This document shows positions 20,219 to 42,337 of a DNA stretch of 46,077 nt, in pieces. Where the stretch lies: contig JADLAB010000681.1 of assembly GCA_020848455.1 (NCBI GenBank), forward strand, positions 1 through 46,077, given 5' to 3'. The stretch's first letter is position 1. Every line of letters begins with the position of its first letter. The position numbers and the translations under genes were made by a program. The DNA is from Polyangiaceae bacterium. Lineage in GTDB: Bacteria > Myxococcota_A > Polyangia > Polyangiales > Polyangiaceae. The notes under the pieces are model-generated. The model was not told the origin of the DNA, did not search any database, and was given only the letters and a program-made list of their open reading frames with translations.

Positions 20219-21154
20219 GTGAGCGAGCTCTGGAGCGTGGTCATCGTCAACTGGAACGGCCTCCGGTTCATGGGGCCGTGCCTCGACGCCCTCGGGCGCC
20301 AGAGCTACGCGCCCTTCGAGGTCGTGGTCGTCGACAACGGCTCGACCGACGGCTCGCTCGAGCTCTTGCGGGCGCGCGCGGCCGAGATCGTGCTCGTCGA
20401 GGCCGGCGAGAACCTCGGCTTCGCCGAGGGCTGCAACCGCGGCATCGCGCACTGCCGCGGCAGCTGGGTGTGCATGCTGAACAACGACACGGTCGCCGAC
20501 GAGCGCTGGCTCGAGGCCCTGGTGCGCGCGGCCGCGACCGCGCCGGCCGACTGCGGCATGCTCCAGTCGCTGCAGCTCTACTTCGACCGCCCCGAGCGCA
20601 TCAACTCGGCTGGCATCAGGCTGCGGCCGGACGGGGGCGGCTCGGACCGCGGCGACGGCGAGCCGCGCGACGGCGTACGCGAGCCCGAGCCCATCTTCTC
20701 GCCGACGGCCGGCGCCGCTGCCTACCGGCGCAGCATGCTCGAGCACGTGCGCCTCGACACCGGCTACTTCGACCGGCGGCACTTCCTCTACTTCGAGGAC
20801 ATGGACCTCGGCTGGCGCGCGCAGCTGTCGGGCTTCACGGCGCGCACCGTGCCGGACTCGATCGTCTACCACCACTACCACGGCAGCACCGACCGCGTGA
20901 GCAGCGCCGACCTGGCGGCGATGGTGATCATCAATCGCTGGCGCACGCTGGCGAAGAACGCGTCGTTCCGCTTCTTCGCCACGGCCAGCCTGCGCGGCGC
21001 GTGGCGCCTCTGGCCGCTGTGGCGGCAAGGGGGCACGGCCGCCCTGCGCCGCCTCGGAGCTGCGCTCGGCGAGAGCCTCGCGTCGCGCCGGCGCGTGAGC
21101 GAGCTCTGCACCTCGGACCGGCGCGCGATCGAGAAGCGCTGGGTGGACCGCTAG
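20219..21154 (+). CDS. Family 2 glycosyltransferase
   Basis: A 311-residue inverting GT-A glycosyltransferase of the rhamnosyltransferase-like GT2 group. Motifs are SVVIVNWNG at the start, VVVVDNGSTDGS (nucleotide-binding), ENLGFAEGCNRGI, the metal-binding MLNNDT, FSPTAGAAAYRRSML and the acidic YFEDMDLGWRAQLSG (catalytic-base region). A cytosolic enzyme acting on lipid-linked sugar. The start is a GTG with AAGGA 4 bases upstream. It is followed 46 bases later by the RgpF-like gene on the same strand, which fits a rhamnan or O-antigen assembly role. Confidence 0.92.
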   Translation: MSELWSVVIVNWNGLRFMGPCLDALGRQSYAPFEVVVVDNGSTDGSLELLRARAAEIVLVEAGENLGFAEGCNRGIAHCRGSWVCMLNNDTVADERWLEALVRAAATAPADCGMLQSLQLYFDRPERINSAGIRLRPDGGGSDRGDGEPRDGVREPEPIFSPTAGAAAYRRSMLEHVRLDTGYFDRRHFLYFEDMDLGWRAQLSGFTARTVPDSIVYHHYHGSTDRVSSADLAAMVIINRWRTLAKNASFRFFATASLRGAWRLWPLWRQGGTAALRRLGAALGESLASRRRVSELCTSDRRAIEKRWVDR

Positions 21155-21200: not shown

Positions 21201-21974
21201 ATGCGGCGGCTGGCGATCTACGCGCACTTCGACCCCGACAACGAGGTGAAGCGCTACGTGCTGCACACCCTGGGCGAGCTCGGGCGCGACTGCGAGCGCC
21301 TCGACTTCGTGTCCACCTCGCCGCTGCCGGCGGCCGAGCAAGGCAAGCTGCGCGGCTCGTGCGCCTCGGTCACGCTGAAGGACAACGTCGGCTACGACTT
21401 CGGCATGTGGCAGCGTGCGCTCGCCGAGACCGACCTCGAGGCATGGGACGAGATCGTGCTCGCGAACTCGAGCGTGTTCGGCCCGGTGTTCCCGATGAGC
21501 TCGGCCTACGAGCGCGCGGGGAGCGCGGACTTCTGGGGCATGACCGACAACCACGACATCGCGTGGCACCTGCAGAGCTACTTCCTCGTGTTCCGGCGAC
21601 CGGTGTTGCGCTCGGCGGCCTTCCGCCAGTTCTGGCAGAGCGTGCTGCCCTACCGCGACAAGTTCCAGGCGATCCGCGCCTACGAGGTCGGTCTCACGCG
21701 CTTCCTGCGCGAGGCGGGCTTTCGCGCGCGCGCCCTCTACCCGGTGCGTTCGCTGTTCCCGCCCTGGCCCCTGCGCGGCCTGTACCGCAAGCCCGACGAC
21801 AACGCGACCTGCTACCACCCCCTGCGCCTGCTCCGCGCCGGGATGCCGCTCGTGAAGGTGCAGCTGCTGCGGGACAACCCGGTCGACGTGCGGCTCGGTC
21901 CGGTGGTGCGCTACCTCGAGCGCACCGGCTACGACCTGTCGCTCATCGACTTTCTGCTGCCGGCACGGCGCTGA
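21201..21974 (+). CDS. RgpF-like rhamnan synthesis protein
   Basis: A 257-residue protein of the rhamnan synthesis F (RgpF) type. Typical segments are RLAIYAHFDPDNEVKRYVLHTLGELG, VGYDFGMWQRAL, VLANSSVFGPVFPM, FWGMTDNHDIAWHLQSYFLVFRR and FQAIRAYEVGLTRFLREAGF. Members take part in building rhamnose-containing surface polysaccharides, probably as glycosyltransferases. A good GGAGGAG lies just before the ATG. The gene belongs with the upstream GT2 gene and fits the rmlA/rmlB genes further on. Its last 32 bases overlap the convergent PIG-N-like gene. Confidence 0.9.
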   Translation: MRRLAIYAHFDPDNEVKRYVLHTLGELGRDCERLDFVSTSPLPAAEQGKLRGSCASVTLKDNVGYDFGMWQRALAETDLEAWDEIVLANSSVFGPVFPMSSAYERAGSADFWGMTDNHDIAWHLQSYFLVFRRPVLRSAAFRQFWQSVLPYRDKFQAIRAYEVGLTRFLREAGFRARALYPVRSLFPPWPLRGLYRKPDDNATCYHPLRLLRAGMPLVKVQLLRDNPVDVRLGPVVRYLERTGYDLSLIDFLLPARR

Positions 21975-24543
21975 GGCCGCCGCCCGCGCCGGCCTGCGCG
22001 ACCCGGCGCGCACCGAGGACGACGACCGCGCAGGCGATCGTGGCCACGACGGCCGCCATGAGCGCGTGCGGGAGATCGCCGAGCACGCGGAACGAGGTCC
22101 AGAACGAGCTCTTGCACAGGAACAAGAGGAGCGTGAGCAAGACCACGCGCCCGAGCTCCACGACGACCAGGCCGAGTGCCACGCGGCGCCGGTAGAGCGG
22201 GCCGAGGGGCGCGAGGCAGAGCCCGTAGACGACGCCACGGGCCAGCATGTATTTCCCGACGTTCACGGCACCGATGCGCGTCCAGGTCGTCTCGGTGTCG
22301 CCGAAGGTGCCGGCGGCCCAGTCGATGCCCGTGAAGTCGATGTGCGTGTTGACGCCCGCACGCTGCAGGTAGGTGAGCGCGAACACGAACGCGACGAGCA
22401 CCACGACGAGCGCCGGGCGCACGCCGCGCCGGGCCGGGTCGGTCGCAGGGGCCGCCGGGTCGCCGCGGCTCTGCTCGAGCCGGCGCGCGACCTCGCCCGC
22501 GAGCTCGGCGAGCACCCAGGTCAGGACGAGCGCCACGATCTCGAGGTCGCGCGCGACCCACGCGTAGCCGGCGAGCCAGCCCACGGGGGCCGCGCGCCAG
22601 CCGCCGCGCGCCCAGGACCACATGCCGACGGCCGGCAGCGCGAGGGCCAGCGTCAAGCCGACGGCGCCCGGCGTCGAGGACCGCAGGAACGGCGCCGCAC
22701 ACGCGGCCGCGAGCAGGCCGAGCGCCATCGCCCACTCCGCCGCGCGCAGCGGGACGCGACGTGCGCTCGGCGCGGTGCCGAGCGGCGCCGACGCGGCCGG
22801 TCGTACCAGCCGCTCGAGGGTGAAGAGCGCCATCAACCCGAGGACGCCGGCGAGGCCGGCCGCGCGCGAGCCCGTGAGCCAGGGGCTCCAGTAGTCGCCC
22901 TCGCGGATGCCGATGGGCCAGATGGCGACGGCGCACGCGAGACCGAGCACGGCGCGACCGACGGACAGCGGGGCGCGCTCCGGCGTGCGGCGCCGGCGCC
23001 ACGCCCACACGAGCACCACGAGGGCAGAGCCCGCGACGAGGACGAAGCACTCGGCGAGCGTGTGGCGCGCGTGTGTCGCTGCCAGCACGCCGACCACGAG
23101 CACGCCGAGCTCCGGCGCGCGCCTGTCGACGGCGGCGAAGAAGCGCCGCGGGAGCGCGAACGTGACCGCCATCGCGACGTTGCCCGCGGCGAGGAGCGCG
23201 ATGCGTACGCCGTTCGGCCAGGTGCCCGGCAGGTTCTCGACCGAGCGGGTGAGCACGACGGCGACGGCGACGAGCGCGAGCGCGACACCCAGGCTCGGGA
23301 CGAAGCGCGGGCCGGGAGCGCCCTCGTCGGTGCGCGCGGCGAGGCCCACCGTCCAGGCGTAGGCGAGCAGCAGCCCGGCTCCGACCGTCACCGCCATCAT
23401 GAGCCACGCCGCCGGCGAGTCGGCGGGCTGGGCCTCGACGAGGCGGCCGGCGAGCGCCGTCGCCCGGGCGCGCGCCGCGTCGACGCGCGCCTCGGGGTCG
23501 GCGTCGGGACAGCTGGACTCGAGGCCGGCCGCCTCGGCTCCGAGCTCGGCGCGAGCGTAGCGACCGAGGCGCTCGAGCTCGCCGCACGCGATGGCGGCGC
23601 GCGTCTCGGGCGGCACGTCGAGCCAGCGCGCGAGCACGTGCCCCTCGCCGTGCGCCGGCGAGGGGACGCCGAGCAGGTGCGCGAAGGTGGCGGCCAGATC
23701 GAGCTGGTCGATGGGCTCGTCGGGGTGAAGGCCCGCGACGATGCCCGGCCCGTAGGCGTAGAGCGGCGAGCGCCGCATGAGCGGCGTGTCCGAGCCGTGC
23801 TTGCCGTCGTCGGCCGCACCGTGATCGCTCGTCACGAAGACCGTCGCGTCCGCGGGCAGCGCCGCGAGCAGGCGCCCGAGCTTGTCGTCGAACTCGCGGA
23901 TGTGGCGCCGGTAGGCCTCGGAGTGCACCCCGTGCGCGTGCCCCTGGTGATCGGGGCTCACGAAGTGGAAGATCATGAAGTCCGGCAGCGGGTCCGCGCG
24001 CAAGAACTCGTAGGCCGCGCCGAGGATCTCGTCGTTGTAGTCGACGTCGATCGCGAGGCCCTGCGGGTCCGGGTGCGCAAGATCCCACACCGAGGCTGGG
24101 ATGAGCGTGAACCACGCCATGTCGCCGGCGGCCGCGAGGCGCAGGCCCGCGGCGCGCGCGTTGGCGAAGAGGTGGTTCCAGCGCGTCGCGTGCGCCGTCT
24201 CGTTCTCGACCACCTGGTCGAGATCGCCGGGCTGCCCGGTGGCGTAGGCCAGCACGGCCGACGAGGTCATCGACACCGGGCCTGCGATGACCATGGCGCT
24301 CGAGCGCGCGCGCATCTCGGCGGCAAACTGCGGCACGATGCTCGGGTCGGTCCCGAAGTCGTAGCGCAGGCCGTCGACGATCACGAGCACCAGGCGGCGC
24401 GCGAGCGGCGGGTGCCCGGCGGCCACGGGCGCGAGCTCCGCCGGCGGCGGGGGCGGGAGCGCCACGCGCACCACGCCGACGACGTGCAGGGCCGCGAGCG
24501 CCGCGGTCAAGAGGACGAGCGCGAGGGCGCGCCAGCGAGGCAT
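21943..24543 (-). CDS. Alkaline-phosphatase-superfamily membrane protein resembling GPI ethanolamine-phosphate transferases
   Basis: A protein of 866 residues with one N-terminal transmembrane segment, a large extracytoplasmic catalytic domain (about residues 45-330) and then at least ten transmembrane segments. Catalytic landmarks of the alkaline-phosphatase superfamily are LVIVDGLRYD (Asp57), GPVSMTSSAV with a candidate Ser/Thr nucleophile (91-95), SPDHQGHAHG (Asp198, His199, His202) and VTSDHGAADDGKHG (Asp240, His241, His249), followed by TPLMRRSPLYAYGPGI and IDQLDLAATFAHLLGVPSP. This order and wording are very close to eukaryotic PIG-N/PIG-O/PIG-G, which transfer phosphoethanolamine to GPI mannose. 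The acceptor here is unknown; in a polysaccharide region, decoration of a surface glycan or lipid is likely (inference). Confidence 0.85.
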   Translation of the reverse strand: MPRWRALALVLLTAALAALHVVGVVRVALPPPPPAELAPVAAGHPPLARRLVLVIVDGLRYDFGTDPSIVPQFAAEMRARSSAMVIAGPVSMTSSAVLAYATGQPGDLDQVVENETAHATRWNHLFANARAAGLRLAAAGDMAWFTLIPASVWDLAHPDPQGLAIDVDYNDEILGAAYEFLRADPLPDFMIFHFVSPDHQGHAHGVHSEAYRRHIREFDDKLGRLLAALPADATVFVTSDHGAADDGKHGSDTPLMRRSPLYAYGPGIVAGLHPDEPIDQLDLAATFAHLLGVPSPAHGEGHVLARWLDVPPETRAAIACGELERLGRYARAELGAEAAGLESSCPDADPEARVDAARARATALAGRLVEAQPADSPAAWLMMAVTVGAGLLLAYAWTVGLAARTDEGAPGPRFVPSLGVALALVAVAVVLTRSVENLPGTWPNGVRIALLAAGNVAMAVTFALPRRFFAAVDRRAPELGVLVVGVLAATHARHTLAECFVLVAGSALVVLVWAWRRRRTPERAPLSVGRAVLGLACAVAIWPIGIREGDYWSPWLTGSRAAGLAGVLGLMALFTLERLVRPAASAPLGTAPSARRVPLRAAEWAMALGLLAAACAAPFLRSSTPGAVGLTLALALPAVGMWSWARGGWRAAPVGWLAGYAWVARDLEIVALVLTWVLAELAGEVARRLEQSRGDPAAPATDPARRGVRPALVVVLVAFVFALTYLQRAGVNTHIDFTGIDWAAGTFGDTETTWTRIGAVNVGKYMLARGVVYGLCLAPLGPLYRRRVALGLVVVELGRVVLLTLLLFLCKSSFWTSFRVLGDLPHALMAAVVATIACAVVVLGARRVAQAGAGGGLSAVPAAESR

Positions 24544-24548
24544 GGGGC

Positions 24549-25628
24549 TCAGCCGCCCTCGATCTCGACCACGCAGTCGTCCCCGACCATGAGCGAGAGC
24601 GAGCCGTGGCGCGCGCTCGACGGCCGCACGCACACGCGCTTGCCGATGAGCGAGTCCTCGAGCCGGCGAATGTCCGAGACGTGAGCACCCTCCATGAGGA
24701 CCGAGTGCTCGACCGTGGAGCGCTCGACCACCACCCGCTCGCCGATGGAGGTGAAGGGCCCGACGCGCGCGTCGCGGATCGTGGCGCCGGCGCCGATGAT
24801 CACCGGGCCGCGCACGGTGGAGCGCTCGATCTTCGCGCCCGGTGCCACGCGCACGCGCCCGACCAGGCGGCTGGCCGGGCACACCTCGCCCGCCACGTCG
24901 TGGACCAGCCACTCGTCGAGCACGGTGTCGTTGGCGAGCAGCATGTCGTCCTTCTTGCCGGTGTCGAGCCACCAGCTCGTCACGCGCGCGAAGCGCACCT
25001 TGCCCCCGAGCTCGATGAGCTTGGCGATGGCGTCGGTGATCTCGAGCTCGCCGCGGCGCGAGGGCGCGATGCGCAGGATGGCGTCGAACACGCTCGTCCG
25101 GAAGAAGTAGATGCCGACGAGGGCGAGGTTGCTCGGCGGCACGGCCGGCTTCTCGACCAGGCTGGTGACGTTGCCCGCCGCGTCCACCACGGCGACTCCG
25201 AACTGCGAGGGGTTCTGGACCTCCTTCAGCATCACCCAGCCGGCCAGGCTCGGGTCGGCGCGGAACTCCGCGACGCTGTCCTTGATCTTGGTCCCGATGA
25301 GGTTGTCGCCGAGGTACATCACGAAGTCGCTGTCGCCGAGGTAGCTCCGGGCCGTGAGCACCGCGTGCGCCAGCCCGGCGGGCCGGTCCTGCACGATGAA
25401 CGTGAAGCGCGCCCCGAAGGCCGAGCCGTCGCCGAGCGCGGCCTCGACCTCGCGGCCGGTCTCGGGCGAGATGATGATGCCGATGTCGTCGATGCCCGCG
25501 TCGATCAGGTTGTCGATGACGTAAAAAAGGATGGGGCGGTTGGCGACCGGGACGAGCTGCTTGGCCCCCGTGTAGGTCAGGGGGCGGAGGCGAGTCCCAG
25601 CCCCGCCCGAGAGCACGAGGCCTTTCAT
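24549..25628 (-). CDS. rmlA: Glucose-1-phosphate thymidylyltransferase, long form
   Basis: A sugar-1-phosphate nucleotidylyltransferase of 359 residues. The N-terminal domain has GGAGTRLRPLTYTGAKQLVPVANRPIL (residues 8-34), YLGDN with the metal-binding Asp, VEKP and DTGKKDDML. It makes dTDP-glucose from dTTP and glucose-1-phosphate. The protein is about 65 residues longer than the short RmlA form. Its C-terminal part (from about 245) is a left-handed beta-helix with repeated hexapeptides (RVAPGAKIERSTVRGPVIIGAGATIRDARVGPFTSIGERVVVERSTVEHSV), as in the StrD-like long form. It lies 26 bases after rmlB on the same strand. An extended -10-like TGCTATCGT lies only 7 bases before the ATG, so an internal promoter may exist. 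Confidence 0.93.
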   Translation of the reverse strand: MKGLVLSGGAGTRLRPLTYTGAKQLVPVANRPILFYVIDNLIDAGIDDIGIIISPETGREVEAALGDGSAFGARFTFIVQDRPAGLAHAVLTARSYLGDSDFVMYLGDNLIGTKIKDSVAEFRADPSLAGWVMLKEVQNPSQFGVAVVDAAGNVTSLVEKPAVPPSNLALVGIYFFRTSVFDAILRIAPSRRGELEITDAIAKLIELGGKVRFARVTSWWLDTGKKDDMLLANDTVLDEWLVHDVAGEVCPASRLVGRVRVAPGAKIERSTVRGPVIIGAGATIRDARVGPFTSIGERVVVERSTVEHSVLMEGAHVSDIRRLEDSLIGKRVCVRPSSARHGSLSLMVGDDCVVEIEGG

Positions 25629-25654: not shown

Positions 25655-26722
25655 TCAAGCGCCCAGGCCCAGGCGCTCGCGCCGATAGCTGCCCTCGCCG
25701 ATGCGGCGACACCACTCGCGATGCGCGAGGTACCAGGCCACGGTGCGCCGGATGCCGCTCGCGAAGTCGACGCCGGGCCGGAAGTCGAGCTCGCGCGCGA
25801 TCTTGCTCGCGTCGATGGCGTAGCGCCGGTCGTGACCGGGCCGGTCCTTGACGAAGGTGACGAGCGAGTAGTAGCCGCCCGCGAGCTCGGGCGCCGGCAC
25901 GAGCTCGTCGAGCGCCGTGCACAGGGCGCGCACCATCTCGAGGTTGGTGCGCTCGGAGTTGCCGCCGATGTTGTAGTGCTCGCCCGGCACGCCGCGCTCG
26001 GCGACGCACAAGAGGGCGCGGGCGTGGTCCTCGACGTAGAGCCAGTCGCGCACGTTGCGCCCGTCGCCGTAGACCGGCAGCGCCTTGTGCTCGAGCGCGT
26101 TGAGCACGACGACCGGCACGAGCTTCTCGGGGAACTGGTAGGGACCGTAGTTGTTCGAGCAGTTCGTGACGAGCGTCGGCACGCCGAAGGTCTCGTGGTA
26201 GGCGCGCACGAAGTGGTCGGCGCTCGCCTTGGACGCGGCGTAGGGGGAGTTCGGCGCGTAGGCCGTCGTCTCCGTGAAGAGGCCGGTCGGCCCGAGCGAG
26301 CCGTACACCTCGTCGGTCGAGACGTGCAGCAGGCGGAAGGCGTCGCGCGCGGCCGGTTCCAGGGCGCGCAGGTGGGCCCGCACGGCCTCGCAGAGCTCGA
26401 AGGTGCCGAGCACGTTGGTGCGCACGAAGGCGGCCGGCCCGTCGATCGAGCGGTCGACGTGGCTCTCGGCCGCGAGATTGAAGATCACGGTCGGCCGCAC
26501 GCGCTCGAGCGTCGCGGAAAGGAGCGCGCGGTCGCACAGATCGCCCTCCACGAGCTCGAAGCCCGCGTGCCCGCGCACCGGCTCGAGGTTGTCGAGGTTG
26601 CCCGCGTAGGTCAGGGCGTCGTAGACGACCACGCGCGCCTGGGGTCGCTCCCGGCACAAGAGGTGGACGAGGTTCGAGCCGATGAAACCGGCTCCGCCCG
26701 TGACGAGGTAGACGGGGTCCAT
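25655..26722 (-). CDS. rmlB: dTDP-glucose 4,6-dehydratase
   Basis: A 355-residue extended short-chain dehydrogenase that converts dTDP-glucose to dTDP-4-keto-6-deoxyglucose. It has the NAD-binding VTGGAGFIG (residues 7-15), the catalytic STDE triad region (135-138), YAASK (161-165), and the RmlB-specific [13 protein letters not shown] and [15 protein letters not shown]. It precedes rmlA on the same strand. No rmlC or rmlD is in the window, so the product may feed another 6-deoxysugar, such as an amino sugar, or the remaining genes lie elsewhere. A TGATATGGC element ends 9 bases before the ATG and may act as the promoter's extended -10. Confidence 0.96.
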
Positions 26723-26763: not shown

Positions 26764-27510
26764 TCAGGCGTCGCCGAGGGCCGACGCGCGCAGGCCCCGG
26801 AGCCGCAGCAGGCGCGCCTCGGCGGCGCTCGGCAGCGGCTGCCGGTCCGCGACCTCGCGGCTCGTCGCCCACCCGATCCGCGGCGCGCGGCCGCGCGGCT
26901 CGCCCGTCTTCTTGATCTCGACCAGCACGCCGAGCTCGTGGGCGACGTCGCGGTAGTAGCGCAGCGCGAAGCTCGGGTGCACACCGTTGGCGCGCAGATC
27001 GCGCACGACCGCGGGCGCGATCGAGAAGACGAGCTCCTGCACGCACCAGCGCGCGCCCATGCGCTCGGCCCAGTGCTCGTGCTGCCACGAGCCCATGTGC
27101 AGGAACTGCCGCTCGTTCCAGGCCGAGACGTGGTCCCAGAAGTGGGCGTCGCCGTGCCAGGAGTACGGGGCCCAGAGCTCGAGCGCCGCCCCGTCGGCAC
27201 AGACGCGCGTGACCTCGCGCAGCAGGCGCAGGGGGTCCGCGAGGTGCTCGATGCAGTGCGAAGAGAACACCTGCCCGACCGAGCCCGTGGCGAACGGCAG
27301 CGCCTCGGCCGCGAAGTCGACCACGTGATCGACCCCCGGCAGGCTGCGCTGATCCACCCCCACGAAGCCGGCACGCTTCTTCGCGCCGCAGCCGAGATCG
27401 AGCGACAGGAGCGGCAGGAGCTCGGCGGCGGGCCGGAGCGGGGCGGCGCTGGCCGGCCCACGACCGAAGGCTTGGCCCAGCGTCGTTCGCGCTCGTCGGA
27501 TGAAGCTCAC
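26764..27510 (-). CDS. SAM-dependent methyltransferase
   Basis: A 248-residue class I methyltransferase. It shows LLSLDLGCGAKKRAGFVGVDQRSLPGVDHVVDFAAEALPFATGSVGQVFSSHCIEHLADPLRLLREVTRVC: the glycine-rich SAM loop, the acidic end of strand 2, and the post-motif IEHL. It is similar to Methyltransf_11 enzymes in sugar-antigen loci. The C-terminal part (HFWDHVSAWNERQFLHMGSWQHEHW) is acceptor-specific and of unknown target. The GTG at 27510 is preferred because GGAG lies 7 bases upstream; the longer reading frame before it is Arg/Ala/Pro-rich. It is 41 bases upstream of rmlB on the same strand. Confidence 0.87.
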   Translation of the reverse strand: MSFIRRARTTLGQAFGRGPASAAPLRPAAELLPLLSLDLGCGAKKRAGFVGVDQRSLPGVDHVVDFAAEALPFATGSVGQVFSSHCIEHLADPLRLLREVTRVCADGAALELWAPYSWHGDAHFWDHVSAWNERQFLHMGSWQHEHWAERMGARWCVQELVFSIAPAVVRDLRANGVHPSFALRYYRDVAHELGVLVEIKKTGEPRGRAPRIGWATSREVADRQPLPSAAEARLLRLRGLRASALGDA

Positions 27511-29672: not shown

Positions 29673-29731
29673 GCGCGCGGCCGCAGGACGGCGCGTGAGG
29701 GTGGGCCGCGCCGCGCGGGCCGAGGGTGCTC

Positions 29732-30859
29732 GTGAAAGTTCCTTTCATCGATCTGAAGAGGGTCGCGGGGCTGGTCCATGCGCAGGCGCTCGAGGCGTGG
29801 CAGCGCGTGGCCGAACGGACGGAGTTCGTCGGCGGGCCGACCGTCGGCGCCCTCGAGGCGGCGCTCGCCGGCAAGCTCGGCGTGCGCCACGCCATCGGCT
29901 GCTCGAGCGGTACCGACGCCATCCTCATCGGCCTGCAGGCGCTCGGCGTCGGGCCGGGCTCGAAGGTCGCCCTGCCCGACCTCACCTTCTGGGCCACCTA
30001 CGAGGCCGTCGCGCAGCTCGGCGCGACGCCGGTGCTCGTCGACGTCGACGAGGATCTGCAGCTCGATCTCGACGAGCTCCGACGGGCGCACGACGCGCAC
30101 CGCCTCGACGCCGTCGTGCTCGTGCACCTCATGGGCTGGGCGAGCGCGCGGCTCGGCGAGATCCGCGCGTTCTGCCAGGAGCGCGGCCTCGCGCTCGTGG
30201 AGGACGGCGCGCAGGCCTACGGAGTCGAGGTCGCGGGTGCGCCGGTGTTCGCCGGAGCGCGGCTCTCGACGCTCTCGTTCTACCCGGCCAAGGTCATCGG
30301 CGGCTGCATGGACGGCGGCGCGATCCTCACCGACGACGAGGCGCTCGCCGGGCTCGTGAGGAAGCTCTGCAACCACGGGCGCGCCACCCACTACTCGTAC
30401 TCGCACGTCGGCTGGAACTCGCGCATGGGCGGCCTGCAGGCCGCGTGGCTGCTCGCCATGCTGGGCCACGCGGACGAGATCGTGCGCACGCGCCGCGCCG
30501 ACGAGGCCCGCTTCCGCGAGCGGCTGGCCGAGGTGGCGCCCCTCGCGCGGGCGTACGGCCCGCCGGCCGGGGTGGCCGGCAACGGCTACCTGTCGGTCTT
30601 CGCGCTCGAGCGCGCCGAGCACGAGGCCGTCGCGCGCCGCCTCGGCGAGCTCGGGGTCGGGGTCGGGCGCGTGTACCCGGAGACGTTGTCGCAGCAGGAG
30701 CCGGCGCGACAGGCACCACGCGCGTCCGACCTCGAGCGGAGCCGTGACTTCTGCCGGCGCGTCGTCGACCTGCCGCTCTTCTACGGCATGACGGCCGAGG
30801 AGCACGCGCACGTGTGCCAGAGCTTCGCGACGGTCCTCCGGGCGGAGAGCGAGCGCTAG
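29732..30859 (+). CDS. DegT/DnrJ/EryC1/StrS aminotransferase (WbpE-like)
   Basis: A 375-residue PLP-dependent sugar aminotransferase. The start KVPFIDLKR is typical of the family; GCSSGTDAILIGLQALGVGPG, LTFWATYEAVAQLGATPVLVDVD and LVEDGAQAYG (Asp158 binds the PLP nitrogen) lead to the PLP lysine in SFYPAKVIGGCMDGGAI (Lys187). It adds an amino group to a 3- or 4-keto nucleotide sugar. I chose the GTG at 29732 (GAGG 6 bases upstream) over a GTG two codons earlier. The next two genes encode a Gfo/Idh/MocA oxidoreductase and a hexapeptide acetyltransferase, the WbpE/WbpB/WbpD set for 3-acetamido sugars, so a 3-keto substrate is likely (inference from the neighbours). Confidence 0.92.
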   Translation: MKVPFIDLKRVAGLVHAQALEAWQRVAERTEFVGGPTVGALEAALAGKLGVRHAIGCSSGTDAILIGLQALGVGPGSKVALPDLTFWATYEAVAQLGATPVLVDVDEDLQLDLDELRRAHDAHRLDAVVLVHLMGWASARLGEIRAFCQERGLALVEDGAQAYGVEVAGAPVFAGARLSTLSFYPAKVIGGCMDGGAILTDDEALAGLVRKLCNHGRATHYSYSHVGWNSRMGGLQAAWLLAMLGHADEIVRTRRADEARFRERLAEVAPLARAYGPPAGVAGNGYLSVFALERAEHEAVARRLGELGVGVGRVYPETLSQQEPARQAPRASDLERSRDFCRRVVDLPLFYGMTAEEHAHVCQSFATVLRAESER

Positions 30860-31915
30860 ATGACCCGACCGAAGAAGACGCTCCTCGTGGGCGCGGGCAA
30901 GATGGGGCGCAACCACCTGCGCGTCCTCACGGAGGACAAGCGCTTCACGGTGGGTGCCGTCGTCGATCCGCGCGCCAAGCAGCTCTTCCCCGAGCCGGGC
31001 AGCTTCCGGGTCGCGACCACCCTCGAGGAGGTCCTCGACGAGCCGTGGGACTGCGCCGTCGTGGCGACCCCGACGGGCTCGCACGCCGAGTGCGGGCGGG
31101 CCCTGCTCGGCCGGCGCATCCCGACCCTGATGGAGAAGCCGCTCGCCGAGAGCCCGCCCGTGTGCGCGGAGCTCGTGGCGCTTTCGCGCGAGCTCGGAGT
31201 GCCGCTCGCCGTCGGGCACCTCGAGCGCTTCAACCCCGCCGTCCGCAAGGCGACCGAGGTGCTGCGCGCCGGCTGGATCGGCACGCCGATCCACTTCTCG
31301 TTCACGCGCGTGGGCGGCTACCCGGAGGGGATCCAGCCCGGCAACAACGTGCTGCTCGATCTCGCCGTCCACGACCTCGACATCCTGCGCACGATGGTGG
31401 GGCCGGTCGCCGTGCACGCGGCCATGTGCCACAGCACCTGGAAGCCGGGCGTGCTCGACACGGCGGAGATCCTGCTCTCGAGCGAGGCCGGGCCGAGCGC
31501 GTCCATCCACGTCAACTGGGTCACGCCGACCAAGATCCGGTCGCTCCGCATCACCGGCACGCGCGGCGTGTGCTTCGTCGACTACATGCTGCAGACCTGC
31601 CACATGATGGGCGGCAACCTCCTCAAGCGCCGCTTCCGCGACGACCTCGACTACGCGTCCTTCGTCGAGGAGTACCGCTCGAGCGACCGCGTCGAGTTCG
31701 GCATCGCCAAGCAGGAGCCGCTGCGCGCCCAGCTCGACGAGCTCCATCGCCTGCTCACGGGCCAGCCCTCCGAGGTGTGCGCCGCCGACGACGCCGCCGC
31801 GGCGGTCACCTGCGTCGCCGAGGCCCTGCGCATCGCCGAGCACTACACCCACGGGCCACAGAACACGGCCCAGTCGAGCCCCCCGAGCCCCCCCGAGAGC
31901 GCGAGAAAGCCATGA
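30860..31915 (+). CDS. Gfo/Idh/MocA family oxidoreductase (WlbA/WbpB-like)
   Basis: A 351-residue NAD(P)-dependent sugar dehydrogenase. The Rossmann motif is VGAGKMGRNHL (10-20), with VVATPTGSHAEC and the family EKP motif MEKPLAES (Glu92-Lys93-Pro94). The C-terminal domain has GHLERFNPA, LLDLAVHDLDILRTMVG and the typical C-terminal QEPLRAQLDELHRLLTG. In the WlbA/WbpB pathway this step oxidises C3 of UDP-GlcNAcA, which matches the upstream aminotransferase and downstream acetyltransferase. The ATG follows directly on the aminotransferase stop; the stop overlaps the next gene (ATGA). The C-terminal tail is Ser/Pro-rich. Confidence 0.92.
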   Translation: MTRPKKTLLVGAGKMGRNHLRVLTEDKRFTVGAVVDPRAKQLFPEPGSFRVATTLEEVLDEPWDCAVVATPTGSHAECGRALLGRRIPTLMEKPLAESPPVCAELVALSRELGVPLAVGHLERFNPAVRKATEVLRAGWIGTPIHFSFTRVGGYPEGIQPGNNVLLDLAVHDLDILRTMVGPVAVHAAMCHSTWKPGVLDTAEILLSSEAGPSASIHVNWVTPTKIRSLRITGTRGVCFVDYMLQTCHMMGGNLLKRRFRDDLDYASFVEEYRSSDRVEFGIAKQEPLRAQLDELHRLLTGQPSEVCAADDAAAAVTCVAEALRIAEHYTHGPQNTAQSSPPSPPESARKP

Positions 31916-32490
31916 GCCACTTCGTCCACGCCACCGCCATCGTCGAGGACGGCGCCGAGATCGGCGACGACACCAAGATCTGGCACTTCTGCCACGTGCG
32001 CCGCGGTGCGCGCGTGGGCCGCTCGTGCATCCTCGGCAAGAACGTCTACGTCGACGCCGGGGTACGCGTCGGCGACTGCGTGAAGGTGCAGAACAACGTC
32101 TCCATCTACCACGGCGTCGAGATCGCCGACGGCGTGTTCCTCGGCCCGCACTGCTGCTTCACGAACGACGTGAACCCGCGCGCCATCAAGGCCGACGGCT
32201 CGCTCCGGAGCGAGAGCGAGTGGCAGCTCACGACGACCTACGTGGCGCGCGGCGCGAGCATCGGTGCGAACGCGACCATCCGCGCGGGCGTGCGCGTGGG
32301 CGAGTGGGCGCTCGTGGGCGCGGGCTCGGTCGTCACGCACGACGTCCCGCCCCACGCGCTCGTGTACGGCAACCCGGCCCGCGTGCAGGGCGTCGTCGCG
32401 CCGAACGGCGAGATCGTGTCGCGCCGCTACGCGCCCGGCGCGTACACGACCAAGGACGGCAGCGAGCGCTTCGTCGTCCCCGCGAGCTGA
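31912..32490 (+). CDS. Hexapeptide-repeat acetyltransferase (WbpD/WlbB-like)
   Basis: A 192-residue left-handed beta-helix N-acetyltransferase. Repeats run from HATAIVEDGAEIGDDTKIWHFCHVRRGARVGRSCILGKNVYVDAGVRVGDCVKVQNNVSIYHGVEIADGVFLGPHCCFTNDVNPRA to GASIGANATIRAGVRVGEWALVGAGSVVTHDVPPHALVYGNPARVQG. The segment KIWHFCHVRRGARVG together with FTNDVNPRA is the signature of the WbpD/WlbB group, which acetylates the 3-amino group of UDP-GlcNAc(3NH2)A. It is the third gene of the aminotransferase-oxidoreductase-acetyltransferase operon and overlaps the previous stop. Confidence 0.93.
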   Translation: MSHFVHATAIVEDGAEIGDDTKIWHFCHVRRGARVGRSCILGKNVYVDAGVRVGDCVKVQNNVSIYHGVEIADGVFLGPHCCFTNDVNPRAIKADGSLRSESEWQLTTTYVARGASIGANATIRAGVRVGEWALVGAGSVVTHDVPPHALVYGNPARVQGVVAPNGEIVSRRYAPGAYTTKDGSERFVVPAS

Positions 32491-39167: not shown

Positions 39168-41363
39168 ATGTCCTCCGCCGAGCCCGCCGAGCCCGCCGAG
39201 CCCACCCAGCCTGCCGCCGCGCGGGAGCCGTTCGCGCGCGCTCTCGTGCGCCGCCTTCGCGCCACGAGCTCGCGCGCGCGGGGCCTCGGCGCGCTCTGGG
39301 CGCTCTTCGCGCTCCTCGTCGTCTGCAAGATCCACGGCTCGTCGCTCGGCTTTCTCGAGGACCACGCCCCGGACGCGCTCGGCGTGCATCCGGCGCCCTC
39401 CTACGTGCTCGGGCCGGTCGCGCACGCGCTCGGCGCCGATCGGGGCGGCTTCGGGCGCGGCGTCTTCCAGATGGCGCCGCGCGGCGACCGCATCGACGAG
39501 TGGGGGGTCTTCACGCCGTGGGCGCTCGCGCAGCTGTCGCACGAGCCGCCCTTTCCGGTCGTGAACACGAACATCGGCGGCGGGCAGAACATGCTGCTCG
39601 AGTTCGCGAACCCCGTCTGGCACCCGACCGCGCTCGCGCGCCCGAGCACCTGGGGCTACTTCTTCCTCGGCGCCGAGCGCGGGCTCGCCTGGGCGTGGTG
39701 GTTCCAGCCCTTCGCTTGCTTCACGGTGCTCTTCCTGCTCTTCGAGGAGCTCCTGCGCGGCGACCGCAAGCTCGCCGCGTTCGGCGCCTTCTGGTTCTGC
39801 GGCTCGGCCTACGTCGTCTGCTGGAGCGTGTGGCCGGCCTACTCGGTGTTCTTCCCGACGCTGCTCTGCCTCGCCGCGCACCGGCTCGTCGTCGACGAGC
39901 GCCGCTGGGTCATGGCGGTGAGCGCCGTCGCGCTCGGGCTCGGCATCCCGGGCTTTCTCATGTGCCTCTACCCGCCGTGGCAGGTGCCGCTCGTGTGGCT
40001 CTACCTCGGCCTCCTCGGCTGGCTGCTGTGGCGGGACGGCGCGCTCCGGCGCCGCCCTACCGCGCTCGGGCTGCGCCTCGGCGCCCTCGCGCTCGCGCTC
40101 GCGCTCGCGGCCGGGCTCGTCGCCCTGTACGTGAAGGACACGCTGCCGGCCGTGCGCGCCATGATGGGCACGGTCTACCCGGGGAGCCGCTTTCACGCGG
40201 GCGGCGACTACGGCCTCGCGTGGCTGCTCCGCGGCTACTTCAACGGCTGGACGAGCTACGTCTCCTCGGACGGCTTCCACAACGCCTGCGAGGCGGCCTC
40301 GTTCATCCACCTCTACCCGAGCGCGCTCCTCGTCGTCGCTCTGTCGCAGAAGCGGCGCCGCACCTTCGGCGGGCTCGGCTGGCTCCTCATGGGCTATGTC
40401 GCCTTCGCGGTCGTGTACTCCGCGGTGGGCTTTCCGCGCTTCCTCGCCACGGTGACGCTGATGGGCCGGAGCCACCCGCCGCGGGTCGACATCGCGGTCG
40501 GGCTCGTGTCGGTGCTGCTCTGCCTGTGGCTCTTGCGGCGAGCGGAGCCGGCACCGGGCGCGGACGGAGCCGCACCCGCGCGGGCCGCGCGCGGACCGTG
40601 GCCGGCGCTCGAGCGCCTCGCGCCCGCGCTCGTCGGGGTCGCGAGCGCGCTCCTCGCGGCCGGGGTCGGTGCCGCCGTGCGAGCCCACACCGGGAGCTAC
40701 CCGACGGTGGCGCTCGGCATCGGCGTCGCTGCGGCCGTGGGGGCGATGGGCTACGCCCTCGCGGCCGGGTGGCGCACGGTGTTCATGGCCCTGCTCGCCG
40801 CCGCCGTGCTCGTGACGGGCGCGACCTTCAACCCGCTCGCCGTCGGCGCCGGGACCCTGCTCGAGTCCGAGCTCGTAGAGAAGGCGCGAGAGCTCGGCGC
40901 CGAGCGCCGCCCGGGCGCGGAGCGGCCGCTCTGGCTCTGCTACGACCCGCCCGAGGCGTACGGCGTGTGCGGGCAGCTCCTGGCCGTCGCGGGTGTGCGC
41001 ACGCTCTCCGGCGTGCACCAGTACCCGCACCTCGAGCTCTGGCGCACGCTCGATCCGGAGCGCGCGCACGACGCGGCCTACAACCGCTACGCGCACGTCG
41101 AGCTCGTGCCCGCGACCGACCGGGCGACGCTCGAGTTCCAGGCGCCGGCCGCGCAGTACTGGGGCGCGCCCGGCGAGCTCCCGCCGAACGTGTTCCGGCT
41201 CGCGGTGGCGCCCGAGAACGCCGCCCTCGCGGCACTCGGCGCAGGCTACGCCGTCGCGGTCGGCCCGCTCCAGGAGGATCCGGCGTTCGCCGACCTCCGA
41301 CGCGTCTACGCCTCCGAGACGGGCGGCTTCTCCATCTACGCGCTCGGAGCAGAGGGCCCATGA
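39168..41363 (+). CDS. Large polytopic membrane protein, GT-C-like, in an operon with a flippase-like protein
   Basis: A 731-residue protein with about 12-14 hydrophobic segments and a C-terminal extracytoplasmic part of about 170 residues (LLESELVEKARELGAERRPGAERPLWLCYDPPEAYGVCGQLLAVAGVRTLSGVHQYPHLELWRTLDP and beyond). Early periplasmic loops contain DRIDEWGVFTPWALAQLSHEPPFPVVNTNIGGGQNMLLE, which resembles the acidic first loop of GT-C transferases and YfhO-like proteins. The N terminus has repeats of AEPAEP. I cannot name the family with certainty. Its stop overlaps the start of a UPF0104 gene (ATGA), so the two probably act together in export or modification of a lipid-linked glycan (inference). 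Confidence 0.82.
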   Translation: MSSAEPAEPAEPTQPAAAREPFARALVRRLRATSSRARGLGALWALFALLVVCKIHGSSLGFLEDHAPDALGVHPAPSYVLGPVAHALGADRGGFGRGVFQMAPRGDRIDEWGVFTPWALAQLSHEPPFPVVNTNIGGGQNMLLEFANPVWHPTALARPSTWGYFFLGAERGLAWAWWFQPFACFTVLFLLFEELLRGDRKLAAFGAFWFCGSAYVVCWSVWPAYSVFFPTLLCLAAHRLVVDERRWVMAVSAVALGLGIPGFLMCLYPPWQVPLVWLYLGLLGWLLWRDGALRRRPTALGLRLGALALALALAAGLVALYVKDTLPAVRAMMGTVYPGSRFHAGGDYGLAWLLRGYFNGWTSYVSSDGFHNACEAASFIHLYPSALLVVALSQKRRRTFGGLGWLLMGYVAFAVVYSAVGFPRFLATVTLMGRSHPPRVDIAVGLVSVLLCLWLLRRAEPAPGADGAAPARAARGPWPALERLAPALVGVASALLAAGVGAAVRAHTGSYPTVALGIGVAAAVGAMGYALAAGWRTVFMALLAAAVLVTGATFNPLAVGAGTLLESELVEKARELGAERRPGAERPLWLCYDPPEAYGVCGQLLAVAGVRTLSGVHQYPHLELWRTLDPERAHDAAYNRYAHVELVPATDRATLEFQAPAAQYWGAPGELPPNVFRLAVAPENAALAALGAGYAVAVGPLQEDPAFADLRRVYASETGGFSIYALGAEGP

Positions 41364-42337
41364 ACGAGACCGACAAGAAACCGCCGAGCGCGCGGCTCGC
41401 CTGGTTGCGCCGCATCGCGACGCTCGCGGCGACGGTGGGTCTGCTCGTCTACATCTTCCGTTCGGTGCCGCTCGACGCGACCTGGCAGGCCGTGCGCGAG
41501 GCCGGCCCGCTCCTGCCCGTCGTCGCGTTCGCGTACTTCCTGTACTGCTTCGCCGCCGATTCCATCGCGACCTGGGCCACCTTCCGCTGGTTCTGTGCGC
41601 CGCTCGCGCTCGCGGACGTGTTCGCGATCCGCGGTGCCACGTACCTGCTCGCCATCGTCAACTACAACCTCGGCCAGGGCGGCATGGTCTACGTCGTGGG
41701 GCGCAAGCCCGGTGTCGGCTACGCGCGGGCGACCGGCACGGTGCTCCTCACGATGGGCGTCATGGTCGTCGCGCTCCTCATGCTCGCGGCCTTCGGGAGC
41801 GCGTTCGGCCCCGAGGACGAGCCGCGCCTGCGCCTCATGGGGCTCGTCTCCGCCGTCGGGCTCGGTGGGCTCGTGCTCTACCTCGGCCTGGTCGCGCTCC
41901 GGCCCGCCCGGCTCGCGCGCATCCGCGTCTTCCAGCCGCTCTTCGACGCCGGCATCCTCGGCCACGCCAAGGCGTGGCTCGTGCGCTTCCCCCACGTCGG
42001 CGGGCACATCGTGTTCCAGTGGCTGCTGCTCCGCCTGTTCCGCGTCGAGGTCCCCTTCACCACGGCCGCGTGCCTCCTGCCGGTCGTGCTCGTCATCGGC
42101 TGGCTGCCCATCACCATCCAGGGCCTCGGCACGCAGCAGCTCGCGGTGATGGAGCTCTTCGCGCCCTACGCCGCCGCGCCGTCGCTCGAGGCCCAGAACG
42201 CGCAGGTCCTGGCGTACAGCCTGAGCCTCACGGGCCTGTTCGTGCTCTACAGCGCGGTGACGGGCCTCCTGTGCCTGCGGCGCGCCGGTCGCGCGTCTCG
42301 GCGGCCAGCTGCCGCGTCGAGCGACCCCCCGGCGTGA
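41360..42337 (+). CDS. UPF0104/LPG-synthase transmembrane-like (flippase-type) protein
   Basis: A 325-residue protein with about eight transmembrane segments and the UPF0104/AglD-like lysylphosphatidylglycerol-synthase TM family layout: LDATWQAVREAGPLLPVVAFAYFLYCFAADSIATWATFRWFCAPLALADVFAIRGATYLLAIVNYNLGQGGMVYVVGRKPGVG, and near the end LPVVLVIGWLPITIQGLGTQQLAVMELF. The NYNLGQGG and GLGTQQ segments are the family's conserved glycine/polar motifs. Related proteins are thought to move lipids or to help in glycolipid assembly. The ATG overlaps the stop of the upstream gene. A terminator-like hairpin follows the stop. Confidence 0.85.
   Translation: MNETDKKPPSARLAWLRRIATLAATVGLLVYIFRSVPLDATWQAVREAGPLLPVVAFAYFLYCFAADSIATWATFRWFCAPLALADVFAIRGATYLLAIVNYNLGQGGMVYVVGRKPGVGYARATGTVLLTMGVMVVALLMLAAFGSAFGPEDEPRLRLMGLVSAVGLGGLVLYLGLVALRPARLARIRVFQPLFDAGILGHAKAWLVRFPHVGGHIVFQWLLLRLFRVEVPFTTAACLLPVVLVIGWLPITIQGLGTQQLAVMELFAPYAAAPSLEAQNAQVLAYSLSLTGLFVLYSAVTGLLCLRRAGRASRRPAAASSDPPA

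Follow-up and report, generated by a model that had tools for sequence, protein, structure and literature searches.

A Polyangiaceae membrane protein with a PIG-O/G-like catalytic domain ahead of a polytopic membrane domain

Can a bacterium carry an enzyme of the class that adds ethanolamine phosphate to glycosylphosphatidylinositol (GPI), and on what would such an enzyme act? GPI anchoring is a eukaryotic hallmark, and the origins of its enzymes are debated. The question is raised by one gene in a stretch of 46,077 nt from a Polyangiaceae bacterium (assembly GCA_020848455.1, contig JADLAB010000681.1, positions 1 to 46,077), called the window here. A sequence-only reading of the window had described its product as a bacterial relative of the GPI ethanolamine-phosphate transferases PIG-N, PIG-O and PIG-G. 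We found that, judged by sequence, this protein (the target) resembles those enzymes in all testable catalytic features.

The gene and its family

The target open reading frame (ORF) lies at 21943-24543 on the minus strand, with its ATG at 24543 and its stop at 21945-21943, and encodes 866 aa. This bore out the ORF of the sequence-only reading, which had left the strand unstated. The five motifs quoted there were all located in the protein and in the order given: VDGLRYD (residues 56-62), SPDHQGHAHG, SDHGAADDGKHG, TPLMRRSPLYAYGPGI and IDQLDLAATFAHLLGVPSP. The features of the target are as follows.

21943..24543, minus strand: putative PIG-O/G-like membrane phosphotransferase, 866 aa (ORF, full-length homologues, PF01663 E 2.9e-17)
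24463..24537, minus strand: N-terminal transmembrane (TM) helix, about residues 3-27 (predicted helix 2-28, hydropathy)
23614..24411, minus strand: catalytic domain, about residues 45-310 (invariant residues in the family alignment, alignment with NPP 2gsn and PIG-G/PIG-O, VIA Z 28)
22018..23415, minus strand: C-terminal membrane domain of 12-14 TM helices, about residues 377-842 (models, hydropathy)
22291..22362, minus strand: C-terminal motif QRAGVNTHIDFTGIDWAAGTFGDT, residues 728-751 (aligns via a sister clade with GNSNNIATVDISAGFVGL of PIG-G)

This is a real conserved gene. The host genome (9.2 Mb in 742 contigs, 96.5% complete) holds a second full-length copy, for which two comparisons with the target gave 36% and 32% identity. 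The sister genome, a Myxococcales groundwater metagenome-assembled genome (MAG), carries the target copy at 92% identity and was the sole match in one scan of genome contigs with the target. Other Myxococcota genomes contributed 16 more full-length homologues, alignable end to end at 31-47% identity. The family alignment (A1) joins these 16 with the target, the sister copy and the same-genome paralogue, and its 19 members share 48 invariant positions.

No homologues were found in viral contigs. Phages and plasmids gave partial matches only, limited to the catalytic domain; where annotated, these are named as alkaline phosphatases or as members of the alkaline phosphatase family. By structure, the viral protein that best matched the catalytic domain was a Hyperionvirus 'alkaline phosphatase' (BFVD A0A3G5AF19; TM-score 0.73 by target, 22% identity).

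The catalytic domain and its nearest relatives

The catalytic residues of the target are D57, T93 (the nucleophile), N114, D198, H202, D240, H241 and H249, all of them invariant across A1. In a profile-to-PDB alignment, the metal ligands and the nucleophile correspond one-to-one with those of a nucleotide pyrophosphatase/phosphodiesterase (NPP, 2gsn), and 256 residues of the modelled catalytic domain superpose on NPP/ENPP structures at 2.5 A (VIA Z 28). In Pfam, the best match of the target was Phosphodiest (PF01663, E 2.9e-17), found in all 19 members of A1; Metalloenzyme and Sulfatase (PF00884, E 3.3e-7) were weaker.

No solved structure of the PIG-N/O/G class was found in the PDB by sequence. 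For this reason, the human PIG-G, PIG-O and PIG-N sequences were written out rather than fetched from a database and then checked against Pfam, which recognised them as PIGO_PIGG, PigN and Phosphodiest proteins; all PIG scores given here rest on these sequences. PIG-G so written matched PF19316 with E 1e-28 and PIG-N matched PF04987 with E 8e-137; PIG-O reached E 6e-4 against PF19316, its 19.4 bits falling short of the cut-off of 27.

The sequence-only reading had proposed comparing hidden Markov models (HMM) with PIG-N, PIG-O and PIG-G. With the A1 profile, hhalign gave E 3.5e-23 for PIG-O (30% identity over 264 columns), 2.5e-20 for PIG-G and 4e-18 for PIG-N, the matches being restricted to the catalytic domain. 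The HMMER scores followed the same order: 115 bits for PIG-O, 107 for PIG-G and 72 for PIG-N, with the top PDB chain (Xanthomonas NPP) at 57. At 19 of 19 tabulated key positions the target, PIG-G and PIG-O are identical, including a GDxxW motif (residues 140-144 of the target) and the short spacing of a compact DHG-x4-G-x-HG. From DHG to GxHG, NPP (2gsn) has about 97 further residues, which the target and the PIGs both lack. We had considered GDxxW as a signature of PIGs only and ruled this out, since NPP carries GxPxW at the equivalent site.

These comparisons show, at the level of sequence, that the catalytic domain of the target is homologous to that of PIG-O/G. They also support PIG-O and PIG-G, followed by PIG-N, as its nearest relatives among the families tested, with EptA and LtaS sequences not individually scored. 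PIG-O is GPI ethanolamine-phosphate transferase III (Gpi13 in yeast), and PIG-G is transferase II (Las21/Gpi7). They share with the target an N-terminal TM helix, a lumenal or periplasmic alkaline-phosphatase-superfamily domain, many TM helices, 28-30% identity across the catalytic domain, the full two-metal site and a Thr nucleophile. PIG-N (Mcd4) has the same topology and a similar DHG-x4-G-x-HG; unlike the target, it has no tryptophan at the GDxxW position. The sequence-only reading had named a best match to EptA/LtaS-type enzymes or to ordinary phosphodiesterases of another topology, and a loss of metal ligands, as outcomes that would speak against it; none of these occurred.

Architecture and the membrane half

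The AlphaFold2 (AF2) model of the target (pLDDT 86, pTM 0.86) contains an N-terminal helix at 2-28, an alpha/beta domain at about 50-300, a helical linker at 312-370 and long helices at 377-854. Hydropathy gave 1 + 12 TM segments, with a spacing of TM, catalytic and multi-TM parts that resembles PIG-G/O/N. Taken together, models and hydropathy place one N-terminal TM helix before the alkaline-phosphatase-superfamily domain and 12-14 TM helices after it, in agreement with the one helix and at least ten proposed earlier. Since the N-terminus is predicted to be cytoplasmic, the catalytic domain would be periplasmic. No PDB fold matched the membrane domain, for which Foldseek reached E 0.06 at best and the top VIA score, against designed bundles, was Z 8.0; this does not demonstrate a new fold.

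A link between the membrane half and the PIGs came from a sister clade of six Myxococcota proteins (L034-L037, L039, L078), whose membrane half is homologous to that of the target family (E 5.8e-8, 193 columns). The small C-terminal profile of these six sequences (last ~135 residues) aligns with PIG-G 851-981 of 983, and none of 500 shuffles scored as high. Among real proteins, where eukaryotes were represented by the three PIGs alone, PIG-G came right behind the clade's own members with 13.3 bits, and 59 multi-TM controls stayed at or below 7.0. On PIG-O the profile found the corresponding place (894-925) with a weak score, and PIG-N was not placed by it. Through this bridge, the evidence for a common descent of the whole protein appears good but not final, and homology of the membrane half to the PIGs can be called partly shown from these alignments.

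Placement among bacterial clades

The catalytic-domain tree, which had 64 rows, joined the target family in one well-supported clade (100/98) and five of the six sister-clade proteins in another (99/95), with L037 unplaced. PIG-O/G and PIG-N both fell outside these clades, on an unresolved backbone. The sister clade (L034-L036, L039, L078) and a DHGH clade (L031, L102) share with the target a catalytic domain followed by many TM helices, and most sister-clade members have GDxxW. Both groups are 20-25% identical to the target and form separate clades.

The DHGHxxxGxH clade of Myxococcota comprises L031, L025, L102, L109 and L061 (second and third copies). Its members that were read to the end have 700-800 aa and the catalytic-then-membrane layout, and the clade is weakly placed beside PIG-O/G in the tree.

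Gene neighbourhood

The neighbouring genes in the window are the following.

20219..21154, plus strand: GT2 glycosyltransferase (PF00535 E 3.2e-24)
21201..21974, plus strand: RgpF-like glycan protein (PF05045 E 5.3e-31)
24549..25628, minus strand: rmlA, glucose-1-phosphate thymidylyltransferase, long form (TIGR01208 E 8.4e-132)
25655..26722, minus strand: rmlB, dTDP-glucose 4,6-dehydratase (TIGR01181 E 2.8e-139)
26764..27510, minus strand: methyltransferase domain protein (PF08241 E 3.4e-8)
29726..32490, plus strand: amino-sugar genes for an aminotransferase, a Gfo/Idh dehydrogenase and a hexapeptide acyltransferase (NCBIfam matches)

Taken more broadly, the window is a region of surface-glycan genes. 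In the same region, 39168-41360 encodes a 731-aa membrane protein with DUF7657 and DUF7654, followed at 41360-42334 by an LPG-synthase-TM-like protein.

The sequence-only reading had drawn on an overlap with the RgpF-like gene and on the rmlA/rmlB context. The overlap is there (32 nt); the two genes are convergent and meet tail to tail, so the RgpF-like gene is not co-transcribed with the target and is no operon partner, which leaves a weak functional link. The genes rmlB, rmlA and the target share one direction, with the rmlA stop 5 nt ahead of the target ATG; this rml/glycan setting is not conserved outside the genus. A conserved rml/RgpF operon was ruled out, the arrangement being confined to the genus.

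The same-genome paralogue lies in a GT4 - MMPL transporter - GT4 - PIG-like operon (L051:8300-15948, contig C632), which is retained in the sister genome (L052). This locus resembles a glycolipid synthesis and export cluster. Next to their homologues, L059 and L063 carry GT4 genes and L065 carries a PAP2 lipid phosphatase gene. Such links between the homologues and lipid or glycan genes are recurrent, not universal.

Other neighbours were also observed. A TerB-domain gene stands tail to tail with the homologue in four genomes: L057 (PF05099), and L058, L060 and L062, these by clustering. In L062, a gene with an FGE-sulfatase (formylglycine-generating) domain lies directly upstream of the homologue (L062:7219-8235), whose nucleophile is Thr, not Cys/Ser.

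Proposed function and alternatives

To the reading that we favour we give about an even chance of being right: the target would be an inner-membrane PIG-O/G-type phosphotransferase that works in the periplasm and moves the head group of a phospholipid, probably ethanolamine phosphate, onto a lipid-linked glycan. PIG-N, PIG-O and PIG-G add ethanolamine phosphate to the mannoses of lipid-linked GPI, and their active sites face the lumen of the endoplasmic reticulum (PMC7125958); the bacterial periplasm would be the equivalent of that side. The periplasm-facing domain would bind two metal ions (zinc in relatives), one through D57, D240 and H241 and the other through D198, H202 and H249. T93 would attack a phospholipid (most likely phosphatidylethanolamine) at its phosphodiester, releasing diacylglycerol and leaving a phosphoethanolamine-threonine intermediate. 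The phosphoethanolamine would then go to a hydroxyl group on a lipid-linked glycan, which the membrane domain with its 12-14 helices would hold. We infer that the protein is a transferase rather than a hydrolase, that ethanolamine phosphate is the group, that the acceptor is a lipid-linked glycan and that, in this genus, the context is a glycan made from dTDP-sugars. Since PIG-O/G are the closest relatives, ethanolamine phosphate is our first choice for the group moved. For the function, the 5-nt distance to rmlA, the operon of the same-genome paralogue and the GT4 and PAP2 genes beside homologues count in favour of this reading.

Several results weigh against this proposal. The nearest solved structures are hydrolases, and the sequence, as we read it, does not name the head group. 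The membrane model PF19316 (PIGO_PIGG) matched none of the 19 A1 members and nothing in the genome, PF04987 (PigN) matched 0 of 19, and the C-terminal profile of the target's own family was not above chance against the PIGs in HMM/HMM comparison. With both membrane models unmatched, the target falls outside formal PIG membership, and we therefore call it PIG-O/G-like. In the catalytic-domain tree, PIG-O/G do not come out as sister to the target clade (backbone unresolved, 77/68 for another placement); thus, the layout occurs in several bacterial clades, of which the target's is one, and the tree does not single it out as the closest to the eukaryotic enzymes. The relationship to GPI ethanolamine-phosphate transferases proposed by the sequence-only reading stands, then, for the catalytic domain, the ligands and the layout, and lacks the PIG membrane models and a specific tree grouping with PIG-O/G. 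Neighbours outside the genus are mixed and include unrelated TerB, kinase and IMPDH genes. Besides, the bacterium has no known GPI pathway and no PIG-F partner was found: PF06699 was unmatched in the 96.5% complete genome, in a search where no control genome scored above the cut-off and prokaryotic sensitivity is uncertain.

The same architecture and chemistry could serve to move another group, for instance glycerol phosphate taken from phosphatidylglycerol, which is what GacH/SccH-type enzymes add to rhamnose polysaccharides. The adjoining rmlA, rmlB and RgpF-like genes would suit such a role, as would a head group that is not fixed by sequence. Streptococcal rhamnose polysaccharides bear glycerol phosphate (PMC12282279, PMC11754754), which counts in the same direction. 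We nevertheless regard it as unlikely, the catalytic domain being nearer to PIG-O/G than to any other family scored. In LtaS/GacH-type enzymes, moreover, the membrane helices come ahead of the catalytic domain, which also counts against it.

Rather improbable, too, is a membrane-tethered NPP-like phosphodiesterase or phosphatase that, in the periplasm, hydrolyses a nucleotide, a phospholipid head group or a glycan phosphate. Bacterial NPP and ENPPs are the top PDB matches by both sequence and fold, and they have PF01663, the catalytic fold and all metal ligands in common with the target. However, they differ from it by the additional DHG-to-GxHG segment, which the target lacks as the PIGs do, and by having no polytopic membrane domain, and the PIG-O/G bit scores are about twice that of NPP. 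A conserved polytopic domain would also be hard to account for with soluble substrates. An envelope phosphotransferase of the EptA/LtaS type seems very improbable indeed. EptA/MCR, LtaS and YejM share the superfamily and the envelope location, the PF00884 match is weak, and the YejM periplasmic domain occurs among the Foldseek matches to the target; their topology is reversed, with membrane helices before the catalytic domain, and they are absent from the best sequence matches. EptA_B_N (PF08019) was found neither in the target protein nor in the genome, in a search where the E. coli control was positive.

Implications

Much of GPI synthesis has been traced to Asgard archaea by a 2026 study (PMC12872458). 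In the open-access literature, we found no reports on bacterial PIG-N/O/G homologues. Returning to the PIG-O/G-type transferase, we tentatively suggest, at somewhat less than an even chance, that myxobacteria possess full-length PIG-N/O/G homologues which put ethanolamine phosphate on lipid-linked envelope glycans, that is, GPI head-group chemistry on a non-GPI glycolipid. If the complete PIG-N/O/G layout has radiated in bacteria, this enzyme class would gain tractable models, and the target family would reveal an unrecognised bacterial glycolipid decoration in a genome without detectable EptA.

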